From assembly GCA_937951675.1 (NCBI GenBank), contig CALFBI010000026.1:1-38176 (forward strand): a stretch of DNA of 38,176 nt, written 5' to 3'. The position numbers were made by a program, and so were the translations under genes. Positions 1,076 through 38,176 of the stretch are shown here, in pieces (position 1 is the stretch's first letter; each line of letters starts with the position of its first letter). Under the pieces are notes generated by a model. It worked only from the letters and a program-made list of their open reading frames with translations, made no database searches and was not told where the DNA came from. This DNA comes from an uncultured Verrucomicrobiales bacterium. GTDB taxonomy: Bacteria; Verrucomicrobiota; Verrucomicrobiia; Verrucomicrobiales; Akkermansiaceae.

Positions 1076-1470
1076 TCAAAACCTTTCGTAGATGGTGATT
1101 AATCGCTGCTGAGCAACTCCCCAAGGAGCCTCGTTGTGAAGGTGGGCTCTGAGCCACCGATAAAACTTAGCGCTTAGCTGACTTGGTTTCTGGTAGATTT
1201 CCCGCAAGAGCGGAAGTTGTTTGATGTGACCTTCAGCTTTGGTTTTGAGCTCTTGTAAGCTTTTTTATTTTTTCTTCGCGTTCGGTGGATCCATCGGTCG
1301 CTTTTCTTGATCTCCAGGCCCTTCTATTTTCTCATGCAGTAGCTGAGCCAAATTATAAGCTAAGATGATGAAGGCGGCTTGCATCCTTTTGGCATTTGGG
1401 CTCACCGCCCAAGCTTTACTTTCGTAAAGCTTGTTCTTTAATTCATCGAAGCTCTTTTCAATTCTCCAAA
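1076..1470 (-). pseudogene. IS4-family transposase, C-terminal remnant with in-frame stop
   Basis: Reading the minus strand from about 1470, the frame gives WRIEKSFDELKNKLYESKAW and then NAKRMQAAFIILAYNLAQLL. This is the region around the last catalytic Glu of IS4-family DDE transposases and the helix that follows. An in-frame TAA at 1265-1267 interrupts it. Past the stop the same frame continues with QLSAKFYRWLRAHLHNEAPW to a TGA at 1076-1078, matching the usual IS4 C-terminus. The N-terminal two thirds, including the first catalytic residues, are absent. At its upstream side the frame continues without a break into an IS3-type sequence. It is certainly non-functional. No terminal inverted repeats were identified. 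Confidence 0.8.
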
Positions 1471-1740
1471 TTTTCTTGTGATTAGATTGATCTCAATGTG
1501 GAGGTATCCAATAGAAATATTCCCAGAACCCTCAACGACTATGTTTTGGGATGACTTCGTTGAGTCACTCAATAACGGGAGCATCGCTGACAGATCTGTT
1601 TATACCATTTCGATAGAATGGAGGAGCGACTTAGGCTCAAGAGCATTGCAAGCCCGAGATATGGGATAAGCCTGTTTCTTTCATTAACCAGTCTACGGCT
1701 TCTTTCTTTTCGACTGGTTTCAGGGGGTGCTTACAAGATC
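1456..1740 (-). pseudogene. IS3-family OrfB (transposase) N-terminal remnant
   Basis: On the minus strand the pieces are, in order: KHPLKPVEKKEAVDWLMKET, then (after frameshifts) RACNAL and LSRSS, then DAPVIE-stop-LNEV, KHSR-stop-GFWEYF and NHKKIWRI. This is the typical order of IS3-family (IS2/IS407-like) OrfB N-termini: helix-turn-helix RACxxLGLSRSS, the DxxVIxxLxE helix, GF/YW/RK and NHKRVxR. The spacing from the G of GFW to the N of NHK is 16 residues, as in intact relatives. At least two frameshifts and three in-frame stops are present. The catalytic rve domain is missing: the sequence changes to IS4-type transposase at about 1456-1470. Confidence 0.7.
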
Positions 1741-1874
1741 TTAGTTAAAGGTATTCGTTTGTTCTTTTTTGAAATAAGTGAAATAAGAAGGGGTTATGGA
1801 GGATTTTTAAAGATTAACTCGCCGTAGGGCAGACCAGTTGGTAAGAATGCTTTCAACAGGCGACGCTTATTATT

Positions 1875-2987
1875 TTGACCACATTTAAAGAACTCGGAAT
1901 TGCACCAGATTACATCAAAGGACTTCAAGAATTGGGAATTGAAGTTCCGACGGAGATTCAGAAGAAAGTGATTCCTTTCTTGATGCAAGGGGGAGGTGAC
2001 CTCATTGCCCAAGCTCAAACAGGGACAGGAAAAACAGCAGCTTTTGGGTTGCCTTTATTAAGCCGAATTGACCCCGAAGCGAAAGAGATTCAAGGTCTAG
2101 TTATCGCGACGACCCGAGAGCTTGCCAAACAAATTAGTAAGCAGCTTTTCCGCTATACGAAATATACTTCGAAAATTTTTACAGAGGTGGTCTGTGGAGG
2201 TGATGATATTGAGCGACAGGTGGCCTCCCTAAGAAGACCCACTCACATTGTAGTGGCGACTCCGGGAAGGTTGATGGATTTACTGAAGCGCAAGGCGATC
2301 TCTCTCGATTCGGTGAAGCATTTGGTTTTAGATGAAGCTGATGAAATGCTGAGCATGGGCTTTAAGAAAGAGCTCGAAAGTATTTTTCTTCAGACTAAGA
2401 AAAGAGAAACGACTTGGTTGTTTTCTGCGACAATGCAGAAGGGTGTTCGGCAAATGATCGAAGGAAATATTTCCGCATCCGCTCATATGGTGAGGATTGA
2501 TGAGGCACATACTGTGAACCGTAATATCGAACATTATTTCTCCTATTGTCAGCGAGATAAGAAGTTAGAATTTATTAATGATTTTTTAAGACAGCGAGGG
2601 GCAGAAAGAGGGCTCATCTTTTGCCGGACAAAGGCTGGCGCCGTAACGCTCTGTAAAGAGTTAAGTGAAAAGGGGATTTCGATCGATGTCCTGCAAGGCG
2701 ATTTGACTCAGAAAGAGCGCGATAAAGTGATGCGCGCTTTCAAGAAAGAACGGGTTCAGTTTCTTATCGCGACGGACGTGGCAGCTCGCGGGATTGATAT
2801 TCCAGGACTCTCATTTGTAGTTCATCACCAGCTTCCAGATGAATTAAAATATTATACGCATCGTAGCGGAAGGACGGCGCGAGCAGGTAAGAAAGGGATT
2901 TCGATCGCTCTGATCGAGCAAAAAGAAAAACAACGACTTGGCAAGTTTGCAAGTGAGCTTGAAATTTCCTTCAAGCCCTTATTCTAA
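1875..2987 (+). CDS. DEAD-box ATP-dependent RNA helicase (RhlE-like core)
   Basis: This is an RNA-dependent ATPase that remodels RNA duplexes or RNPs, for example in ribosome assembly or mRNA decay. The 370 residues hold a Q-motif region (PTEIQ, about 26-30), Walker A AQTGTGKT (47-54), PTREL-like TTRELA, GG, ATPGR, DEAD (153-156), SAT (about 184), FCRT, and the C-terminal motifs ATDVAARGID and HRSGRTARAGKKG. It stops soon after motif VI with no basic tail, so it is a minimal two-RecA-domain core. The initiator is TTG at 1875. The frame is open only back to a stop at 1842-1844 and contains no ATG or GTG, and no Shine-Dalgarno is evident. The insertion-sequence scar ends just upstream, so the native 5' region may have been disturbed. 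Its 3' end overlaps the convergent tatD-like gene by 9 bases. Confidence 0.9.
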   Translation: MTTFKELGIAPDYIKGLQELGIEVPTEIQKKVIPFLMQGGGDLIAQAQTGTGKTAAFGLPLLSRIDPEAKEIQGLVIATTRELAKQISKQLFRYTKYTSKIFTEVVCGGDDIERQVASLRRPTHIVVATPGRLMDLLKRKAISLDSVKHLVLDEADEMLSMGFKKELESIFLQTKKRETTWLFSATMQKGVRQMIEGNISASAHMVRIDEAHTVNRNIEHYFSYCQRDKKLEFINDFLRQRGAERGLIFCRTKAGAVTLCKELSEKGISIDVLQGDLTQKERDKVMRAFKKERVQFLIATDVAARGIDIPGLSFVVHHQLPDELKYYTHRSGRTARAGKKGISIALIEQKEKQRLGKFASELEISFKPLF

Positions 2988-3743
2988 AAAGAGAGTCGTG
3001 TAGTTACGAAGAAGTTGCTCGTCGGTCACTTTGAAAATGTCCGTCGCAACCTCGTAAATAGTGCGGAGGTTCTGAGGGTGGTTTGCGGTCTCAGAGCCGG
3101 GACGCATCGATTGGGGAAGGAGCATGTCTGGGGCATCTGTTTCAAGTAAGAGACGGTCCTTAGGGACATCATGAAAGGCATTCAAAGAGGCCTGTTTGCG
3201 GTCATGGAAGAAATAACCAGAGCATGAGAAGTAGGCTCCTTTTTCAACAAACCAAGGAATCCAATCTCGAGGACCTGCGTAAGAGTGAAGTAAGAATCCC
3301 TTAGGAAGTTCGTATTCGGAGAGGATTTCCCGAAGGCTGCCCCAGGCTTTTAAGCAGTGAATCGTAGCCACTCGTTGATGTTTCTGAGCGAGAGAGAGCT
3401 GTTGGGTGAAGAGCGACTTTTGAAGGTCTAAATCGTGTCCTTGGATCCATTTGTCTAATCCACACTCTCCGATATGAGCATGAGGGTTGGCGAGGAGTTC
3501 GTTTTCTAGTTTTGTGATCCAGTTTTTGCTAGCGCTAGTCGTTTTCCAGGGGTGGAGACCGTAAGAGGCCGTGACAATATCGGGAAATCGAGCCGCGATT
3601 TCTCGAACTTCGGTCCAGTCGTTTTCGGAGGTCGCGTTGACCATAGCATGTTTGATTCCATGCTTCACTGGGCAAAAGTCGTTTAAAACTTCTGTGAGGC
3701 GAGGGTCCTGCCAATGGCAGTGCGCATCACAGAGAAGTTCCAT
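2979..3743 (-). CDS. TatD-family metal-dependent hydrolase
   Basis: This is a TIM-barrel hydrolase of the TatD DNase family (3'-5' exonuclease or amidohydrolase-like, cytoplasmic). The 254 residues carry the N-terminal metal motif DAHCH (Asp6, His8, His10), the bridging acid in GECGLD (Glu93), His129, His153 and the late metal ligand in ETDAPD (Asp203). Length and motif order are standard. It is the last gene of a minus-strand series: 176-residue protein, M23 peptidase, RidA, TatD. It follows ridA by 21 bases. Its stop lies inside the 3' end of the opposing helicase gene. Substrate within the family cannot be told. Confidence 0.88.
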   Translation of the reverse strand: MELLCDAHCHWQDPRLTEVLNDFCPVKHGIKHAMVNATSENDWTEVREIAARFPDIVTASYGLHPWKTTSASKNWITKLENELLANPHAHIGECGLDKWIQGHDLDLQKSLFTQQLSLAQKHQRVATIHCLKAWGSLREILSEYELPKGFLLHSYAGPRDWIPWFVEKGAYFSCSGYFFHDRKQASLNAFHDVPKDRLLLETDAPDMLLPQSMRPGSETANHPQNLRTIYEVATDIFKVTDEQLLRNYTTLFLE

Positions 3744-3764
3744 CAGCGAAAGAAGAAGCTGATG

Positions 3765-4223
3765 TTAAGCGAACTCAACGATGAGGCTGATTTCGACCGA
3801 AACATTAAGAGGAAGAGCTGCCGCTCCGAGCGCAATCCGGGAGTGCTTCCCTGCTTCACCAAAAATTTCGAGGAGAAGGTCCGATGCTCCATTAATAACT
3901 GCAGGATGTTGGTAGAAGTCTGCCTCTGAGTTGACAAAACCTTGTAGGGAAACAATCCGAGTCACACGATCAAGATCGCCAATTTCGGATTTTACGACTG
4001 CGAGCCGGTTCAGGATAATCATACGGGCAGCTTCTTGAGCTTCCTCTACCGAGATGACGGTTGGAACTTTTCCGATGATTTTTTTGTCTCCGTCAATAGG
4101 GAGGCCTCCGGAAAGGTGAATCAAGTTTCCAGTGACGACTGCATTCACATACGAAGCAACAGGAGCTGGAACTTCAGGGAGAGAGAGGCCAAGGCTGGTG
4201 ATTTTTTCTTCAATTTTAGACAT
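3765..4223 (-). CDS. RidA/YjgF family protein (enamine/imine deaminase type)
   Basis: Members hydrolyse reactive enamine or imine intermediates formed by PLP enzymes. Some are annotated as endoribonuclease-like. This 152-residue protein is of the longer RidA subgroup. The C-terminal signature HSRIALGAAALPLNVSVEI contains the conserved Arg (Arg129) that binds the substrate carboxylate, followed by the trimer-interface strand VEISLIVEFA. The ATG overlaps the stop of the upstream M23 peptidase gene by one base (TGATG), so translation is probably coupled. No regulatory sequence of its own is visible. The function of coupling a cytosolic RidA to a secreted peptidase is unclear and may only reflect operon packing. 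Confidence 0.85.
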   Translation of the reverse strand: MSKIEEKITSLGLSLPEVPAPVASYVNAVVTGNLIHLSGGLPIDGDKKIIGKVPTVISVEEAQEAARMIILNRLAVVKSEIGDLDRVTRIVSLQGFVNSEADFYQHPAVINGASDLLLEIFGEAGKHSRIALGAAALPLNVSVEISLIVEFA

Positions 4224-5278
4224 CAGTTTTTTGCTTTTTGAAATGAGTTTGAAATAAGGGCAATGAATCGTTTCCCTGAGCCAGACAGGCTCGCTTTTCC
4301 GTTGCTACCAGAGAGGTAACCTTTGGTAAGGTCTGCGTAGGAAAGGGGAGAATGTTTAATGAATGAAACGGTGGGCTGTGTGACCTGGCGTTGACTACAG
4401 CGAATGGAAAGAGGAATGCCTGCCGCGGAAAAAGAGAGTTCCCAAGAAGGGGACGGGAGAGTCAGGTTTCCTTTTTGGAGCCACGGGTATCGTTGTGCGA
4501 TATTGAGGGGAGAGGTGCGAGGAATTGTGATGGAATAAAAAAGAGGTTCATCCTGAATGAATTTAACAAGATTAACATGTGGATTAGATTCTTCTGCGAC
4601 AAGAAGCGCGGCCACATTAATTCCGATCATGTTGATTCCATTGTAGTTACTATGCATATTTGCCGACTTAAGAAAGTGCCGGTGCCAGGCATCGAAATTT
4701 TCAGAAAGCATCATATTGAACTCAAGATGAAGGTGAGCCCTCTTGCGGTTAATGCCTCGTCCTGTGTAGCCGAGTAGTCCGAGAGGGATACGAGGGTCTA
4801 CTTCCTGACCTAGCTGGCAGTCGATGCGGTGTAAATGTGCGTAAAGTGAATAAAAAAGCCCCGCGGGGAAAAGGTGTTCAACGACAACGTATTTTCCGTA
4901 ATTACTTCGCTTGGACTGATTATTAATATAAACGACTTTCCCTTTCGCGATACTGCTGACGAGATCAGTAGGTTTTTGATTAGAATCCCGGTAAAGAGGC
5001 TTGATATCAATGCCTTCATGGAATCTGGTTCCAATCACTCCTTGAGGAGTTCTTTTAAGGTTACGAATAAACCCATATTGCCCCGCCTGCCAAGGGGTAG
5101 AGGTGGCTCCTTCGAAATTTCGGTTAGTGTGCATGTAAAATTTCTCATACTCACCAGTGAATAAATGTCTATTTTTAGTAGGAAGCTCGAGTTGAAGCGG
5201 TTCAGCAGTTACCTCTAGAGTGATTAGGGTTGTGATGCAAACGATGACTTGAGAGATACGGGACAGGGTTGTCAGCAT
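4223..5278 (-). CDS. Secreted M23 (LytM-type) peptidase
   Basis: This predicted exported zinc metallopeptidase probably cleaves peptidoglycan cross-bridges or acts as a murein hydrolase activator. The 351-residue protein begins with a signal peptide (hydrophobic about residues 9-23, then TAEP). The M23 core has the metal motif HEGID (His87, Asp91), YAHLHRI around residues 146-152, and HLHLEF (His182, His184), so all catalytic positions are present. The C-terminal 150 residues are unfamiliar. It follows the 176-residue secreted protein by 18 bases and overlaps ridA by one base, so these genes are likely one transcript. Confidence 0.85.
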   Translation of the reverse strand: MLTTLSRISQVIVCITTLITLEVTAEPLQLELPTKNRHLFTGEYEKFYMHTNRNFEGATSTPWQAGQYGFIRNLKRTPQGVIGTRFHEGIDIKPLYRDSNQKPTDLVSSIAKGKVVYINNQSKRSNYGKYVVVEHLFPAGLFYSLYAHLHRIDCQLGQEVDPRIPLGLLGYTGRGINRKRAHLHLEFNMMLSENFDAWHRHFLKSANMHSNYNGINMIGINVAALLVAEESNPHVNLVKFIQDEPLFYSITIPRTSPLNIAQRYPWLQKGNLTLPSPSWELSFSAAGIPLSIRCSQRQVTQPTVSFIKHSPLSYADLTKGYLSGSNGKASLSGSGKRFIALISNSFQKAKN

Positions 5279-5296
5279 GATCGGGGAAGTGAAATA

Positions 5297-5827
5297 TTAT
5301 GATTTCTTTTTGAGGCTTTTCTTTAATTCTTTGCGGCGCTGCTTCCATCTTTCTGGAGATTCGCCAATACGGGGTAAAGCCCAATCAAGAGAACGAATAT
5401 CGGCGAGAGTCGCATTTTTCCAAATAACAAGAGTGCCGTCCGTCACCCCTCGATCGATCATGACAGCATCGCACAAGCGGCCGTTAACAAGGCAGAGCAT
5501 CCAACTTCCACGCTTATCGGTGGTGATGCTACGAAGGCGTATGTGAGAAGATTTTTTTAATTGAAAAATAAGCCCGTATCCTTGGTTTTTATCTGCGGGG
5601 AAGCTCCGAAACGCCGCGACATCTTTCAGGCTGAAATAAGGCGCTATTTGGAAATAGCGGGTTTGGCCATAGATTTCGCGACCAATAACCAGTTTATTTC
5701 CATCGGTTCGGTGCCCTTCGAAGTGGAAACCAATTCTGGCAGGTGGTGGTTTTTTGCCACCTGCCTGGAGGGTGGGGAGGAAAAGAAAGAAAAGTGCGAT
5801 GAAGCAAGGCAAGATTCGGAATAGCAT
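5297..5827 (-). CDS. Secreted protein resembling the SecD periplasmic head
   Basis: The 176-residue protein starts with a clear signal peptide (MLFRILPCFIALFFLFLPTL, cleavage probably after LQA). The mature part contains QGYGLIFQLKK, then a helical stretch, GSWMLCLVNGRLCDAVMIDR, GVTDGTLVIW and a final helix ADIRSLDWAL. That order (substrate-like strand, 'LaIvLdGkv.saPvI', 'i.Gg..I.g.ft.eeA') parallels the P1 head region of SecD, here without any membrane domain. This is inference from pattern. The C-terminus is strongly basic (RKELKKSLKKKS). It is the first gene after the transaldolase terminator and lies directly upstream of the M23 peptidase, so a cell-envelope role is plausible. Confidence 0.6.
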   Translation of the reverse strand: MLFRILPCFIALFFLFLPTLQAGGKKPPPARIGFHFEGHRTDGNKLVIGREIYGQTRYFQIAPYFSLKDVAAFRSFPADKNQGYGLIFQLKKSSHIRLRSITTDKRGSWMLCLVNGRLCDAVMIDRGVTDGTLVIWKNATLADIRSLDWALPRIGESPERWKQRRKELKKSLKKKS

Positions 5828-5862
5828 TGTTTTAATCTGAGTGAGGATAAGACCAAGGTAAA

Positions 5863-5892
5863 GAAAAACGGAGTGCGAAACCGCACCCCGTT
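5863..5892 (-). terminator. Rho-independent terminator after transaldolase
   Basis: On the minus strand a GC-rich stem (CGGGGTGCG / CGCACTCCG, 4-base loop GTTT) is followed by a T run (GTTTTTC). It separates the transaldolase gene from the downstream 176-residue gene. A second hairpin (AGAGGGTTCC / GGAACCTCTC type) lies just before it at about 5908-5931. Confidence 0.75.
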
Positions 5893-5944
5893 GAAATCAA
5901 TGATGAAGAGAGGTTCTGTGAGGAACCCTCTTTGGAAAAGCAAC

Positions 5945-6901
5945 TTAAAGCATTTCACCGATCAGCTTCTCAAGCTTCACGATATCAGCAGAGAAGGCAC
6001 GAATCCCTTGCGCTGTTTTTTCAACAGCCATGGCGTCTTCATTGTAGAGGAAACGGAAAGCTGCTTCGTCGAGAGAGACTTTCTCTTCGCCTTTTGCTGC
6101 TGCTGTTTCTGCTGAAATGGTTGGTGTGAGTGCTTCTTCGCTTGCCGCAAGTTCAGCAAGAAGCTTAGGGCTGATGGTCAAGAGATCACAACCTGTGAGC
6201 TCAGTGATTTGACCTTTGTTACGGAATGATGCTCCCATAACCTCAGTTTTGTAACCGTGCTTTTTGTAGTAGTTGTAGATGCGTTGAACAGATTGAACAC
6301 CTGGATCTTCTGCGCCAACATATTCTTGACCTGACTGCGCTTTATACCAGTCGTAGATACGACCAACGAAAGGAGAGATGAGTTGGACGTTCGCTTCTGC
6401 ACATGCAACGGCTTGAGCGAATGAAAAGAGGAGAGTGAGGTTACATGTAATGCCTTCTTTCTCGAGTTCTTCAGCGGCTTTGATTCCTTCCCAAGTCGAA
6501 GCGATCTTGATGAGGATGCGAGATTTATCAATGCCTTCAGCGGCATAATCGGCAATGAGTTTTTTTGCTTTAGCGACGGTTGTCGGAGCGTCGAAAGAAA
6601 GACGTGCATCAACCTCCGTCGAAACACGACCGGGAACGATGTTGAGAATCTCAAGTCCGAAGAGAATGAGGATACGGTCAATGATTGATTCAATCAGCGC
6701 GTCGCCAGTAAGATCGGAACCTTTATGCTCATCAATCGCCTTTTGAACGATCGGACGGTATTCTGCTTTTTCTGCAGCTTGCAGAATAAGAGAAGGGTTG
6801 GTCGTGGCATCCTGAGGGAGAAACTCCTTCATAGATTCGAAATCACCGGTATCTGCGACAACGGTCGTAAACTTTTTAAGCTGTTCCAATTGGTTGCTCA
6901 T
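5945..6901 (-). CDS. tal: Transaldolase
   Basis: This pentose-phosphate-pathway enzyme transfers a dihydroxyacetone unit between sedoheptulose 7-phosphate and glyceraldehyde 3-phosphate in the cytoplasm. The 318-residue protein aligns by eye with the E. coli TalB subfamily. It has [10 protein letters not shown] (31-40), the Schiff-base lysine Lys132 in [15 protein letters not shown], and CNLTLLFS just after. Length is typical of TalB. It follows sufE in the same direction with about 70 bases between, and a terminator lies immediately downstream. No strong ribosome binding site precedes the ATG. Confidence 0.95.
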
Positions 6902-6970
6902 AGGCCTAGAAACTGAGTGTTTGAGAGCTCAGGTGCGAGTAAAAATTCCGAAAAATTGAAAAATTTCCTG

Positions 6971-7393
6971 TCATGAGGGAGAACTTGAAGCCTTTAGAGC
7001 GAGTTTTTTCATTTCTGTTGCCATTAAATTAAGAGCATTGGCTCGAGTTGGGGCGAGATGCTCCTTTAGGCCTGTGCGGTCGATAAAGCTCAAGTCCGCC
7101 TGTAAAATGTGGTCGGGGGACTCCCCATCGAGGACTTTTACGAAAAGTGAAATCATTCCTTTGGTGATAAGGGAGTCAGAATCAGCATGAAAATGCATCA
7201 AGCTTCCATCAAAATCAGCATCAACCCAAACTTGAGACTGACAGCCCTTGATAAGTTTATCGCTGGTTTTTTGAGCTTCATCCATCTCGGAAAGTCGTTT
7301 GCCCATTCCGATGACGTATTCGTAACGCTCCGTCCAATCTTCAAAGAAAGAAAGCTCTTCGATGAGGTGATTTTGTTTTTCGGCAATCGTCAT
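6971..7393 (-). CDS. sufE: SufE-family cysteine desulfuration protein
   Basis: SufE accepts persulfide sulfur from the cysteine desulfurase SufS and hands it to the SUF scaffold for Fe-S cluster assembly. The 140-residue protein has the characteristic DKLIKGCQSQVWV with the acceptor Cys51, the same position as in the E. coli protein, and a C-terminal helix rich in Leu/Ala. Length is normal. No sufS, sufB, sufC or sufD is in the window, so it is separated from its partners. It is divergent from the CbiX-like gene across about 140 bases that must hold both promoters. Confidence 0.9.
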   Translation of the reverse strand: MTIAEKQNHLIEELSFFEDWTERYEYVIGMGKRLSEMDEAQKTSDKLIKGCQSQVWVDADFDGSLMHFHADSDSLITKGMISLFVKVLDGESPDHILQADLSFIDRTGLKEHLAPTRANALNLMATEMKKLALKASSSPS

Positions 7394-7535
7394 GAGAGAA
7401 GAATCGTTGAAGTCCGTAAACAGTGCAAGCTCTGCGATCGAAAAAGAGGGACGGGAAGTGTGTTTCTAAAGGGGAATCAAATGAATCGAGCTTCAATCCC
7501 TTTTCTTTTATCAAGTTCGTGCTAAATTCCCCCTC

Positions 7536-8426
7536 ATGTCATCAGCTCCATGCACCCTTCTTGTCGATAATGGCTCTCACCGGGCCACTTCTACCTTGAA
7601 TTTAAGGCGTTTGGCAGGGGAACTCAGTGATGTTGTGAATCACCATGTTCATCCTGTTTCGCTCTTACATTCGACGAGGGTAAGCCCCGAAGAGTTAGGG
7701 GGAGTTCCCGCTGAGATTTTTGAGCCATTCATTAAAAAGCAGCATGAGGAGCATGGCACGAATTCATTCCTAGTAGTGCCTTTGTTTTTCGGCCATTCAG
7801 CGGCGATTTACGAATACATTCCACAGCGCATGAGAGAGCTTCAAGTGAAGTGGCCGGAGTTAGAGATTCGCCTAGCTCCTTGTTTAGTGAATCTCGATGA
7901 CCCCTCTGACCGAGATGTGGCGGAAGCCTTGGCTACTTTGGTTTCTAAAAAAGCAGAGGAAAAAGGGATAGAGAAACCAGCGGTGGCCCTGGTAGATCAT
8001 GGCACACCTCGTATTGCGGTGAATCTTGTGCGTAATTTTTTAGGGAAACAATTAAAAGAGATTTTAGAAGGAAAAGCTTCAAAGGTCGAAGTGTGCTCGA
8101 TGGAGCGCCGTGAAGGGGATGAATATGCCTTTAATGAACCTCTTTTAGAGAATTTACTGGGGTCCGAAGGGTTTGATAAAGAAGTGATTTTATCGATGCT
8201 CTTTCTTTCTCCTGGACGTCACGCGGGTCCAGGTGGAGATATTGCTGAGATTTGTGAGGAGAGTGAAGAGAAGCATCCTACGCTTCAAACTCACATGAGT
8301 GATCTCTTTGCGACTCATGACCTCATTATTGATCTCCTTGCAAAGCGTTTCACTCAAGGGGTTGATTCTTTACCTGTCACCTCGGAAGTTGCACCACCCC
8401 TTGTCGTGCAATCTCTGTCTTCATAG
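7536..8426 (+). CDS. CbiX/SirB-like two-domain protein (putative chelatase family)
   Basis: The family inserts Co or Fe into sirohydrochlorin. This 296-residue protein carries two repeats of the fold. The first has LLVDNGSHR at residues 9-17 and FLVVPLFFGHSAAIYEYIP near 80-97. The second has VALVDHGTPR near 150-159 and MLFLSPGRHAGPGGDI near 221-236. In active chelatases the first strand ends in HGS and the second motif has a metal-binding His in GGH. The second repeat keeps both His residues, while the first has Asn in place of the first His. No other corrin or siroheme genes are near. It starts a plus-strand gene train ahead of mdh. The exact metal and substrate are unknown. Confidence 0.7.
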   Translation: MSSAPCTLLVDNGSHRATSTLNLRRLAGELSDVVNHHVHPVSLLHSTRVSPEELGGVPAEIFEPFIKKQHEEHGTNSFLVVPLFFGHSAAIYEYIPQRMRELQVKWPELEIRLAPCLVNLDDPSDRDVAEALATLVSKKAEEKGIEKPAVALVDHGTPRIAVNLVRNFLGKQLKEILEGKASKVEVCSMERREGDEYAFNEPLLENLLGSEGFDKEVILSMLFLSPGRHAGPGGDIAEICEESEEKHPTLQTHMSDLFATHDLIIDLLAKRFTQGVDSLPVTSEVAPPLVVQSLSS

Positions 8427-8496
8427 GCGAGTAAATGCGCCTCGCGAGGAGTATCACTTGACTCTGCCTCACCGTCTTTTTAGTAATTAAACCATC

Positions 8497-9486
8497 ATGA
8501 ATCCAGCTATTACTGTTTCGGTGACTGGGGCTGCCGGCCAAATTGGTTACGCTCTTCTTTTTAGAATCGCCTCAGGTGCCATGTTTGGTCCTGATCAACC
8601 AGTAAATCTACGCTTAATAGAAATCGAGCCAGGGATGAAGGCTCTAGAGGGAACCGTCATGGAAATCGAAGACGGAGCCTTTCCTCTCGTGCAGCATATC
8701 ACGGCTACGAGTGACTTAAATGAAGGCTTTAATGGTTCGAACTGGGCTCTGCTTGTAGGATCAGTTCCTCGTAAAGCGGGTATGGAGCGGGCCGATCTAC
8801 TCGGAATCAATGGGAAAATTTTCATTGGCCAAGGCCAAGCCATCGCAAACAACGCTGCCGCTGATATCAGAACTCTCGTCGTTGGTAACCCCTGTAATAC
8901 AAATGCTTTTATAGCTAAAGAAAGCGCGAAAGAGATCCCTTCTGATCGCTTTTTTGCAATGACACGTCTCGATGAAAATCGAGCGAAATCTCAATTGGCA
9001 AAAAAAGCAGGGGTTCATGTCAGTGATGTGACGCGTATGACGATCTGGGGGAACCATTCAGCGACTCAATACCCTGATTTCGCAAATGCCTTAATTAAAG
9101 GTAAGCCTGTAGAGGCTGTCATTAATGACCGTCCATGGCTTGAAAATGAATTTATCTCGACTGTGCAACAACGTGGTGCCGCGATCATTCAAGCACGAGG
9201 TGCCTCTTCTGCGGCTTCTGCGGCGAACTCAGTGGTCGATACGGTAGCAAGTCTCGTGAATCCAACTCCAGAAGGAGATTGGAACAGCGTCGCTGTTTGT
9301 TCAAAAGGGGACTACGGTATTGATGAGGGTCTCATCGCGTCCATGCCGATCCGCACGACGGACGGAAAGTCTTGGGAAGTGGTTCCGGGGCTAGAATTAG
9401 ACGAATTTGCCGAAGCTAAAAAAGAAGCCTCGGTTCAAGAGCTACGTGAAGAAAAAGTAGCCGTTTCAGGGCTTCTTCCAGTCTAA
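8497..9486 (+). CDS. mdh: Malate dehydrogenase (NAD-dependent)
   Basis: This TCA-cycle enzyme interconverts malate and oxaloacetate. The 329-residue protein shows the nucleotide-binding loop GAAGQIGY (11-18), the mobile-loop arginines in [13 protein letters not shown] (about 90-102), NPCNTNA, Asp159 in TRLDENRA and the catalytic His187 in [10 protein letters not shown]. These features place it with the 'type 2' MDH (Thermus or plant-chloroplast-like) rather than the lactate-dehydrogenase-like type. The start is preceded by no evident ribosome binding site. thiG begins 10 bases after its stop, suggesting a shared transcript. Confidence 0.95.
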
Positions 9487-9496
9487 TTATAGAGAA

Positions 9497-10279
9497 ATGA
9501 GTTTATTACAAATTGCCGATCGCTCTTTTCAATCTCGCCTCATGTTGGGAACTGGAAAGTTTCCTTCCAATGAGTCGATGAAGGATTCACTTGAGTCTTC
9601 TGCTACCCAGATCGTCACAGTCGCTTTGCGTCGTGCGAACCTCTCTGGAGAGCACGACCCTTTTGCGAACATTCTTGATTTTGTCGACCCAGAGAAATAC
9701 CTTATTTTACCGAATACGAGTGGCGCGATGAACGCGGAGGAGGCCGTTCGCTTAGCAAAATTGGCAGCTGCGGCGGGTCTTCCTAAGTGGGTGAAGCTTG
9801 AGATTCATCCTGATCCGACCTATTTACTTCCTGATCCGATTGAGACTTTAAAAGCTGCTGAAGAACTTGTGAAAGAGGGGTTTACGGTTCTTCCTTATAT
9901 CAATGCAGATCCTGTTTTAGCAAAACGCTTACAAGAGGTAGGCACCGCAACCGTGATGCCCTTAGGCGCTCCGATTGGATCAAACCAAGGAATTACAACA
10001 CGGGACCAAATTCGGATCATTATTGATCAAGCAACGGTTCCTGTAGTGGTCGATGCGGGGATTGGTTCGCCAAGTCACGCTGCCGAGGCGATGGAGCTAG
10101 GAGCCGATGCAGTTCTTGTTAACACCGCGATTGCGATCGCGAGTGATCCAGTGAAGATGGGGGTCGCGTTTAAAAAAGCGGTTGAAGCAGGAAGAGAGGC
10201 TTACGAGTTAGGGTTACCTCAACCTGAGCTCAAAGCTTCAGCGACGAGTCCCTTAACGGGCTTTTTGAATCAAGCATGA
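9497..10279 (+). CDS. thiG: Thiazole synthase ThiG
   Basis: ThiG builds the thiazole phosphate of thiamine from deoxyxylulose 5-phosphate, dehydroglycine and ThiS thiocarboxylate. The 260-residue protein has the family landmarks: LMLGTGKF at the N-terminus, TVALRR (41-46), the Schiff-base Lys100 in [32 protein letters not shown] and [12 protein letters not shown]. No thiS, thiF, thiH/thiO or thiC lies next to it and no thi-box riboswitch is recognisable upstream. That fits its position inside a train led by mdh. Its stop overlaps the start of the next gene (ATGA at 10276-10279). Confidence 0.95.
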
Positions 10280-10797
10280 GTTTGTTTCAGCTTCATCTGG
10301 TTTGTGGGCCGCCGGCGGTAGGTAAAACGACCTATGGGCTGAAGCTCGCCAAACAGCTTGGAGCTTGTTTCTTGGATAGTGATCAAGTCACAGAGCTTTT
10401 GATTCAATCTGGAATGAAAGCGGCAGGGCTAGATCCAGATGACCGTGATTCGGATGACTATAAGGCGATCTATCGCCGCCCGGTTTATGAAACCCTCTTT
10501 CGGCTAGCGGAGCAAAATCTGGCGCTGACTTCAGTCGTGGTAGCGGGGCCTTTTACTTCAGAAATAGGAAATCCGAACTGGAAAGAAGAGCTTGAAGTTC
10601 GGTTCCAGCAAAAAGTGGAGCTTCATATCTTACATTGTGAACCAAAAGAGCGAAAGCGACGAATGAAAGTTCGAGGAGAAGCTCGAGATCTGGCGAAGCT
10701 TGCTCATTGGGAAGAATACCTGATAAAAACGCAGCCCTCAGAGCCTCAATTTGATTGTTATTTCGGTCTAGAAAGTCCTCCCGTGATCGTTCTTTAA
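10276..10797 (+). CDS. P-loop AAA-type kinase (zeta-toxin/CPT-like family)
   Basis: The 173-residue protein has Walker [10 protein letters not shown] at residues 11-19, an acidic segment [11 protein letters not shown] in the place where small-molecule kinases bind the phosphate acceptor, and a basic lid region [18 protein letters not shown] near residues 115-135. This is the layout of small ATP-dependent kinases of the AAA_33/zeta-toxin-like superfamily. The substrate is not evident. The start codon overlaps the thiG stop by four bases, so translation is coupled. No antitoxin-like partner is adjacent, which argues against a toxin role. Confidence 0.75.
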
Positions 10798-10850
10798 ATT
10801 TTTTTATTTTTTTGTGACTAAAGTGCGCCTTTGTTTCGTCTTACAAGACA

Positions 10851-11081
10851 ATGAAGGATGGAAGCGACGATAATCAAAGCCCAACGATGGAGCCGTGTGT
10901 CGCACCGAAGCCACCTTCCTTCACCTTGAAAGAGATGGCTCGTAGCTGGCAGATGAGCCCAAGTCGGGCCTTAGTTATGGCGACTCGCTTGACCGAAAAG
11001 GGTCAGTTACAAAAAGTCGGATCGAAAGGAGCGTTTTGGCAAGATCAGAAATATTGCTTCGTCAGAACCTTAACGAACTAA
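10851..11081 (+). CDS. Small winged-helix-like hypothetical protein
   Basis: The 76-residue protein has a polar N-terminal tail and then a segment FTLKEMARSWQMSPSRALVM followed by ATRLTEKGQLQKVGSKGAFW. It reads as helix-turn-helix plus wing, the pattern of small winged-helix DNA-binding proteins. No ligand domain is present. It follows the kinase by about 50 AT-rich bases and precedes a minus-strand terminator that overlaps its stop codon. The gene call depends on this pattern and on its position, so it remains moderate. Confidence 0.55.
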   Translation: MKDGSDDNQSPTMEPCVAPKPPSFTLKEMARSWQMSPSRALVMATRLTEKGQLQKVGSKGAFWQDQKYCFVRTLTN

Positions 11082-37738: not shown

Positions 37739-37892
37739 AGGATCTGAAGCGCATCCTAGTCGTGCGGCTTTGAGGTCGATGAACCAACAAGCTTTGTAGG
37801 CTCTTATTACAAGAAGATTTCCCTTCAGATTTCTCTTTTCACACGGGCTTAACTGCCTATGATCCCCACCCAATCACAGGTGGTTAAAAAAT

Positions 37893-37933
37893 GGGGCTGT
37901 AGCTCAGTTGGTTAGAGCAGGGGACTCATAATC
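37893..37933 (+). pseudogene. Truncated tRNA, 5' half with CAT anticodon
   Basis: The sequence GGGGCTGTAGCTCAGTTGGT continues through AGAGCAGGGGACTCATAATC. It forms an acceptor 5' strand, an intact D-arm, the anticodon 5' stem GGGGA and loop CTCATAA. The 3' anticodon stem, T-arm and acceptor 3' strand are missing: after 37933 the sequence is unrelated. It resembles a Met or Ile2 tRNA (anticodon CAT) and cannot be functional. Confidence 0.85.
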
Positions 37934-37998
37934 TTCTCGCTAAAACTGCTAGAGACGGCTTCAAAAAACAGTTAATCAATTTATCGAAAATCTTATAA

Positions 37999-38074
37999 GG
38001 GCCTGTAGCTCAGTGGTTAGAGCAGTCGACTCATAATCGATTGGTCGTGGGTTCAAGTCCCACCGGGCCCACCA
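37999..38074 (+). tRNA. tRNA with CAT anticodon, probably tRNA-Ile2
   Basis: A 76-base cloverleaf: acceptor GGGCCTG / CGGGCCC with one G-U pair, D-stem GCTC/GAGC, anticodon stem GTCGA/TCGAT (G-U closing pair) with loop CTCATAA, T-stem GTGGG/CCCAC with TTCAAGT loop, and encoded CCA. The D-loop (AGTGGTTA) and the stretch GCAG..GACTCATAATCG.TTGGTCG closely follow the bacterial tRNA-Ile2 (lysidine-modified CAU) pattern rather than elongator Met. It lies 65 bases after a truncated tRNA copy. Elongator Met remains possible. Confidence 0.9.
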
Positions 38075-38085
38075 AGATTTTCGCC

Positions 38086-38154
38086 ACTGTCCGGTTACTG
38101 TCCGGTTTTTGGCTTCCAACCCTGTCTCGCTCTGTCCGGTTCTTGAACCGGACA
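38086..38154. repeat. Cluster of TGTCCGGTT repeats beside the tRNA 3' end
   Basis: ACTGTCCGGTT occurs twice in tandem (38086-38096 and 38097-38107). A third direct copy CTGTCCGGTT at 38132-38141 is followed after CTTG by its inverted copy AACCGGACA (38146-38154). The group begins 12 bases past the tRNA CCA. This layout resembles arm-type binding sites of a tyrosine recombinase at a tRNA attachment site, but no integrase gene is in the window. Confidence 0.6.
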
Positions 38155-38176
38155 TTTGCTTTTCTATCCCCCGCCG

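Follow-up and report, generated by a model that had tools for sequence, protein, structure and literature searches.

The window analysed here is the whole of contig C26 (38,176 nucleotides; CALFBI010000026.1 of assembly GCA_937951675.1), one of the 28 contigs of a 2.05-Mb assembly (G000, 96.8% complete) of an uncultured Verrucomicrobiales bacterium. At its right edge, where the contig ends at 38176, lie one half of a tRNA-Ile2 gene, a complete tRNA gene with the same anticodon and a cluster of 9-bp repeats, while the other half of the split gene, the same repeats and the start of an integrase-like gene lie at the end of a second contig, C25. We presume that these two contig ends bound one integrated island, whose insertion would have left a host tRNA gene split and replaced by the complete one. 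In the following, A is the split tRNA with its halves A5 (window) and A3 (C25), and B is the complete tRNA with the corresponding halves B5 and B3. The features of the locus are:

37836-37863, forward strand: promoter-like site TTTTCA-16-TATGAT upstream of the 5' half of the presumed host tRNA (0.5 expected by chance, so weak)
37893-37933, forward strand: A5, the 5' half of the presumed host tRNA-Ile2(CAT), cut after the anticodon loop; it pairs with the 3' half on C25 and duplicates the start of the complete tRNA
37924-37933, forward strand: 10-bp core ACTCATAATC, common to both junctions by sequence comparison (other copy at C25:10044-10053)
37934-37998, forward strand: spacer, proposed as the first DNA of the island; 37934-37963 resembles a decayed tRNA 3' half (Rfam, shuffles)
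37999-38074, forward strand: B, complete tRNA with anticodon CAT, a tRNA-Ile2 by elimination, proposed as an island-borne replacement
38088-38096, forward strand: putative arm-type site 1, TGTCCGGTT (clustering, recurrence of the pair)
38099-38107, forward strand: putative arm-type site 2, TGTCCGGTT, 11 bp after site 1 (clustering, recurrence of the pair)
38133-38154, forward strand: one hairpin made of a third direct TGTCCGGTT (38133-38141) and an inverted copy (38146-38154, reverse strand), terminator-like or an extra arm pair

Three direct copies and one inverted copy of TGTCCGGTT are packed into 67 bases, the first of them 13 bases beyond the 3' end of the complete tRNA, and the initial annotation, which had claimed these four 9-base copies within 70 bases after the tRNA, was correct on their number and orientation (38088, 38099 and 38133 forward, 38146 reverse). 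The window should hold 0.18 copies and holds 4, and at least 4 copies occurred in 0 of 100 dinucleotide shuffles. Genome-wide, the single 9-mer was found 13 times against 15 for its reversed control, which is no enrichment; therefore, only the clustering of TGTCCGGTT is unusual. The tandem pair TGTCCSGYTNCTGTCCSGYT is present twice in the genome, at 38088-38107 of the window and at C25:10183-10202, and no third pair was found there. The hairpin at 38133-38154 is perfect, with 10-nt arms separated by 2 nt and a T-rich tail (TTTGCTTTTC) behind it, and a terminator scan also flags it (1 found vs 0.7 expected by chance), so the third direct copy may, together with its inverted partner, make up a terminator or an additional pair of arms instead of two independent sites. 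The same hairpin and tail would be the basis for reading all of the repeats as a terminator or regulatory hairpin after the tRNA, unrelated to recombination; however, the direct pair at 38088 and 38099 lies outside the hairpin and recurs at the integrase starts and tRNAs of relatives, with the matching variant at the other end, and we regard this explanation as very improbable. The direct pair in the window most likely represents arm-type sites, and the same pair at integrase starts and after tRNAs in relatives speaks for the tyrosine recombinase that the initial annotation had proposed to act on them.

The end of C25 (10369 bases) carries the same tandem arm pair, an integrase-like gene start and a cut tRNA 3' half, so that putative arm-type sites stand at both ends of the presumed island, as they also do in relatives. 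Read on the minus strand from its end, C25 contains the start of a 66-codon frame on the opposite strand, which runs off the contig; TGTCCGGTTTCTGTCCGGTTTTT lies inside its first codons, and about 130 bp further on follow ACTCATAATC and a tRNA 3' half with CCA (A3, 10008-10043), cut at the anticodon loop in the manner of the displaced fragment of a tRNA island, with frames for GNAT and TetR proteins beyond it. ARAGORN found no complete tRNA at the C25 end. Searched against 284 other genomes (285 with its own), the 66-residue piece matched the N-terminus of frames in 7 of them, which are 458-514 aa long in six and 63 and 325 aa long in the seventh. Among five relatives tested, L054, L055 and L057 passed the Phage_integrase cut-off, L056 was just under it (26.5 vs 27.1 bits) and L058 far under it (E 0.007). 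Judged from these first 66 codons, an integrase gene adjoins one end of the island, and both the integrase gene and the duplicated tRNA 3' end that the initial annotation had expected of such an island have counterparts at the C25 end of the same assembly. We also considered the end of an insertion sequence element, with terminal repeats at a contig break, and dropped it because the other end consists of a tRNA half and an integrase-like start.

The arm pair lies within the first integrase codons in C25 (10183-10202), L054 and L056, and encodes KNRTETGQ in all three. The three share AAAAACCGGACAGAAACCGGACAG without a DNA difference, whereas their proteins are no more than about 38-47% alike; this suggests that the arm pair inside the integrase start is under constraint as DNA.

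The two tRNA halves carry the interpretation of the junctions. Upstream of tRNA B, the likeness of A5 to the 5' half of B scores 60 against a maximum of 21 in 200 shuffles, and a 5'-half likeness in the 250 bp upstream of the complete tRNA exceeded its own shuffles in 0 of 17 relatives. A5 and A3 are the only tRNA-Ile2 fragments found in the genome and pair at 12/12 positions (7/7 in the acceptor stem and 5/5 in the anticodon stem, G-T counted), giving 77 nt when joined, B pairs equally well with itself (7/7 and 5/5), and the mixed joins B5+A3 and A5+B3 reach 6/7 and 3/5 each. The two junctions share ACTCATAATC only, B3 and A3 differing in their anticodon and acceptor stems, whereas the six relatives whose two ends lie on a single contig have 3' halves that agree at 36, 36, 36, 36, 34 and 31 of 36 positions and joined sites that pair fully. 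The host tRNA seems not to be rebuilt at the junction: A5 with the spacer gives no tRNA by ARAGORN and B5 misfits the C25 half, and the common core of 10 bp is too short to rebuild a tRNA, as in tRNA-dependent integration. From the full pairing of A5 with A3 and junctions that share only ACTCATAATC, A most likely was the original host gene, with the island starting at 37934. The initial annotation had placed an island at the right edge of the window; the island itself is supported, and its start most likely shifts to the left of the complete tRNA, because tRNA B seems to belong to the island.

An ordinary tRNA island would instead have its crossover in tRNA B, rebuilt as usual, and the 5' half upstream would be left over from an earlier insertion. 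A 5' fragment does remain at some islands (159 of 3919 in the Islander set, PMC4383910), the arms directly follow tRNA B, and rebuilding is the rule in the family, since all 17 other tRNA ends are of the rebuilding type. But the C25 half, which fits A5 fully, is a poor match for B5, while B is itself fully paired; and the divergence of B3 from A3 is unlike the near-identity of the 3' halves in the six relatives. We judge an ordinary island unlikely. Less probable still, the two contig ends could come from different islands, or one junction could be misassembled, and the fit of the halves would then be accidental: the contigs are unjoined, with C26 breaking off 102 bases past the tRNA and C25 within the integrase, yet both ends carry the same arm variant in a genome where no third pair was found, and their halves are the only tRNA-Ile2 fragments and pair completely.

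With the pairing of the halves, the matching arm pairs, the integrase-like 5' end and the layout recurring in relatives all observed directly, we consider the locus best explained as tRNA-dependent integration, with a probability of roughly three in four. The left end of the island would then occupy 37934-38176, and C25 would hold its right end. A tyrosine recombinase from a family present in Verrucomicrobiota would bind the tandem 9-bp arm sites at both ends and carry out the crossover between the 10-bp core ACTCATAATC and the anticodon loop of the tRNA-Ile2(CAT) gene of the host. That gene would be split into its 5' half (37893-37933) and its 3' half (C25:10008-10043) and not rebuilt at the junction; the complete, different tRNA-Ile2 between the core and the arm sites (37999-38074) would take over, with transcription probably starting at the old host promoter and reading through the 5' half left behind. 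We infer that the two contig ends delimit a single island, which part of the DNA belongs to it, that the recombinase binds and recombines these sites, and that tRNA B is expressed and functional.

The CAT-type tRNA pattern occurs at seven places in the genome. Besides tRNA B and the A3 fragment, it hits an elongator-like gene on C4, and C23 contributes both an initiator-type gene that is complete and a 3' fragment of the initiator kind; at the last two places ARAGORN found no tRNA. The other intact CAT tRNAs are thus one elongator-like and one initiator-type gene; therefore, B is a tRNA-Ile2 by elimination, and it is the only intact one found in the assembly. A and B both have the anticodon CAT and Ile2-type loops, so the element, if B is borne by the island as we presume, carries a tRNA of the isotype of the gene it disrupted. 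A stem like that of B (GTCGA/TCGAT) occurs in a tRNA of the family member G005, and B may therefore derive from a related host. Around tRNA B there is a perfect 10-bp inverted repeat (left arm 37985-37994, right arm 38074-38083), which could pair the leader of a precursor with its trailer or mark a small inserted cassette.

The spacer to the left of B may hold a remnant of an earlier state. The Rfam tRNA model matches 37893-37963 at 29.9 bits, borderline against the gathering score of 29, and this stretch consists of A5 and a following segment that keeps the anticodon and acceptor pairing without a normal T arm. Both stems were kept in 43 of 20000 spacer shuffles, in a test chosen after the match was seen; therefore, the fossil 3' half is suggestive only. 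If it is real, the host tRNA used to be rebuilt by the island or an ancestor of it, which lost this capacity once B had been acquired; this is one of the routes that PMC10865867 discusses. More tentatively, and leaning slightly to the doubtful side, we suppose that a Verrucomicrobiota island family which otherwise rebuilds the host tRNA yielded a non-rebuilding member, with a whole foreign tRNA-Ile2 between core and arms that is driven by the stranded host promoter, and a decayed old 3' half beside it.

To characterize the family, we scanned the genome contigs with a profile from an alignment of five integrase relatives and obtained 16 loci, on contigs titled Verrucomicrobia, Opitutaceae, Opitutia, Limisphaerales, Pedosphaera, Geminisphaera or Akkermansia, all of which we take to belong to Verrucomicrobiota. 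Together with the C25 end (L053) and L054-L057, L060 and L061 (L058 and L059 left out) these made 23 integrase starts, of which 22 are distinct, because L056 and L084 are the same sequence, on contigs of equal length (136014). Tandem repeats with a period of 11-13 bp and a run of at least 8 were present in 20/23 integrase starts (C25 included) versus 20/598 control windows, and with a run of at least 9 in 20 starts versus 12 control windows; the cut-off of 8 was picked after the repeats had been seen, and the control windows come from the same loci and may include the far arm pair. The starts below the cut-off were L072 and L078 (runs of 7) and L085 (run of 6). A tRNA 3' half cut from the anticodon loop lies upstream of the integrase in 18/23 by script and in the other five by eye, with the anticodons Asn, CAT (Ile2-type), Lys, Phe and Arg, and the repeated arm word differs among elements (TGTCCGGTT, TGTCCCGTT, TTGGCCACTT, TGGGCCATT, TGTTCCACTT and others). 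When 384 genomes of the class were searched for the arm pair, it turned up at 9 places in 7 genomes and its reversed control at 0; all nine adjoin a tRNA or an integrase end, the four new ones lying 47-86 bp after a complete tRNA. A looser arm pattern gave 34 places in 10/11 genomes against 19 for the reversed control, which is chance-like, and only family-like words were followed.

Both ends lie on one contig in six elements: L072, L081, L087 (G239), L092/L093 (G098), L082/L124 (G399) and L075/L119 (G394). In all six, the arm words at either end are of the same variant class and the far end has a complete tRNA of the same type as the displaced half; the shortest measures about 6 kb (L081) and the longest about 54 kb (L075/L119, if one element). 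The gap from tRNA to arm is 47-86 bp in 16 of the 17 relatives' tRNA ends measured and 324 bp in L131. These 17 ends were gathered because a tRNA lay near an arm pair, and therefore their count is no test of the association, for which the four new places serve. In L131 (G398), an extra stretch between the tRNA and the arm pair (1177-1500) is bounded by the inverted repeat GTGCGGCGATTCATCGCC and resembles a small insertion of the repetitive extragenic palindrome (REP) or miniature inverted-repeat transposable element (MITE) type. Among 20 cargo proteins scanned, a subset of the frames, we found type I restriction genes and a reverse-transcriptase-domain protein in L087, an HTH_17 protein and a Toprim/AAA protein in L072, TPR and HEAT proteins in L081, and an HsdM-like protein and a Schlafen/AlbA protein in L092. 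In viral contigs, 110 stretches fitted a pattern for integrase relatives and none was confirmed, and a 47-residue N-terminal integrase query had no match in plasmids. The arm pattern occurred in two viral contigs, where CGGACAGAAAC repeats with an 11-bp period (L062, about 2219-2260; L063, about 2193-2240); in L063 the repeats lie beside a frame that, judged from the frames, is a candidate recombinase.

Several observations weigh against tRNA-dependent integration at this locus. ARAGORN calls the mismatched joins B5+A3 and A5+B3 tRNAs too, and therefore the pairing count alone separates A5+A3 from them. The core also occurs within tRNA B, which leaves room for a crossover there, and the core-to-arm distance is 153 bp here versus 83-122 in 16/17 relatives and 360 in one. 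The interior of the island and most of the integrase are unassembled, C26 and C25 are joined only by inference, and the 66-residue C25 piece itself had no Pfam match. With the genome 96.8% complete, a further tRNA-Ile2 could be missing from the assembly. In L062 the repeats fall within a phage-like coding frame, and the 7 kb examined contain no tRNA and, judged from the frames, no integrase, which speaks against perfect specificity of the arm motif. Finally, an empty site was not found among 20 relatives searched, none of the same genus; in the tRNA loci of 11 relatives (about 2 kb either side), none of the seven flanking proteins was encoded.

The same genome holds a second, fully assembled island-like stretch (L137, G000:C23:28000-40500, about 1440-11060). 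One of its ends is marked by a complete initiator-type tRNA, the other by the 3' half of this tRNA, and ACAAGCGTTGCAACAAA stands once near each (1520 and 10884). It contains an integrase-like gene, an AAA_25 protein and a Terminase_2 small subunit, and its content is reminiscent of a phage satellite. A fragment of another tyrosine recombinase lies at G000:C10:5505-5606 (L036), right after an apparent transposase start; as a candidate for the integrase of the present island this partial gene was rejected, having other surroundings, no tRNA within 5 kb and no TGTCCGGTT.

tRNA-dependent lysogeny was described by genetic tests in temperate actinobacteriophages (Guerrero-Bustamante and Hatfull 2024, PMC10865867), and it shares with our locus a tRNA-Ile2-CAT among its cases and putative arm-type pairs that flank the core. 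It differs in that our host belongs to another group (Verrucomicrobiota) and that here the tRNA lies next to the host half left behind, with the core on one side and the arm sites on the other. Phage-related sequences of Sinorhizobium meliloti (PMC11476347, PMC12429752) and prophage Lj965 of Lactobacillus johnsonii (cited in PMC10865867) reportedly substitute or make up for a host tRNA that has been disrupted, so tRNA substitution has already been reported outside actinobacteria; both come from other phyla, and their likeness to our locus is one of tRNA replacement. In the open-access literature searched, we found no report of tRNA substitution in Verrucomicrobiota. With the canonical anticodon-loop islands of Islander (PMC4383910), where 2083 of 3919 islands have an anticodon-centred site, our locus shares the integrase, the anticodon-loop crossover and the displaced tRNA 3' fragment; those islands rebuild the host tRNA, whereas our junction leaves the host tRNA split, and the locus has a whole tRNA in addition. 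The tRNA ends of the 17 relatives look like the canonical Islander kind.

If the locus were merely an ordinary tRNA island, it would have little significance beyond the set of integrases and arm words. That set is useful in any case for studying how the arm domain chooses its sites, because the relatives supply integrases whose arm words vary (TGTCCGGTT, TGTCCCGTT, TTGGCCACTT, TGGGCCATT and others) while the position of these words stays the same. Replacement of a cut host tRNA by an island is so far known mainly from phages of other bacterial groups, and the authors of PMC10865867, who named tRNA-dependent lysogeny, leave open both its frequency beyond actinobacteriophages and its relation to the canonical kind. 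The present locus is a candidate case in another phylum, beside canonical relatives, and may preserve an intermediate step. If the island is indeed the non-rebuilding family member supposed above, it would be freed from matching the stems of the host tRNA, and it would be hard to lose, because the host's only AUA-reading tRNA would now lie inside it.
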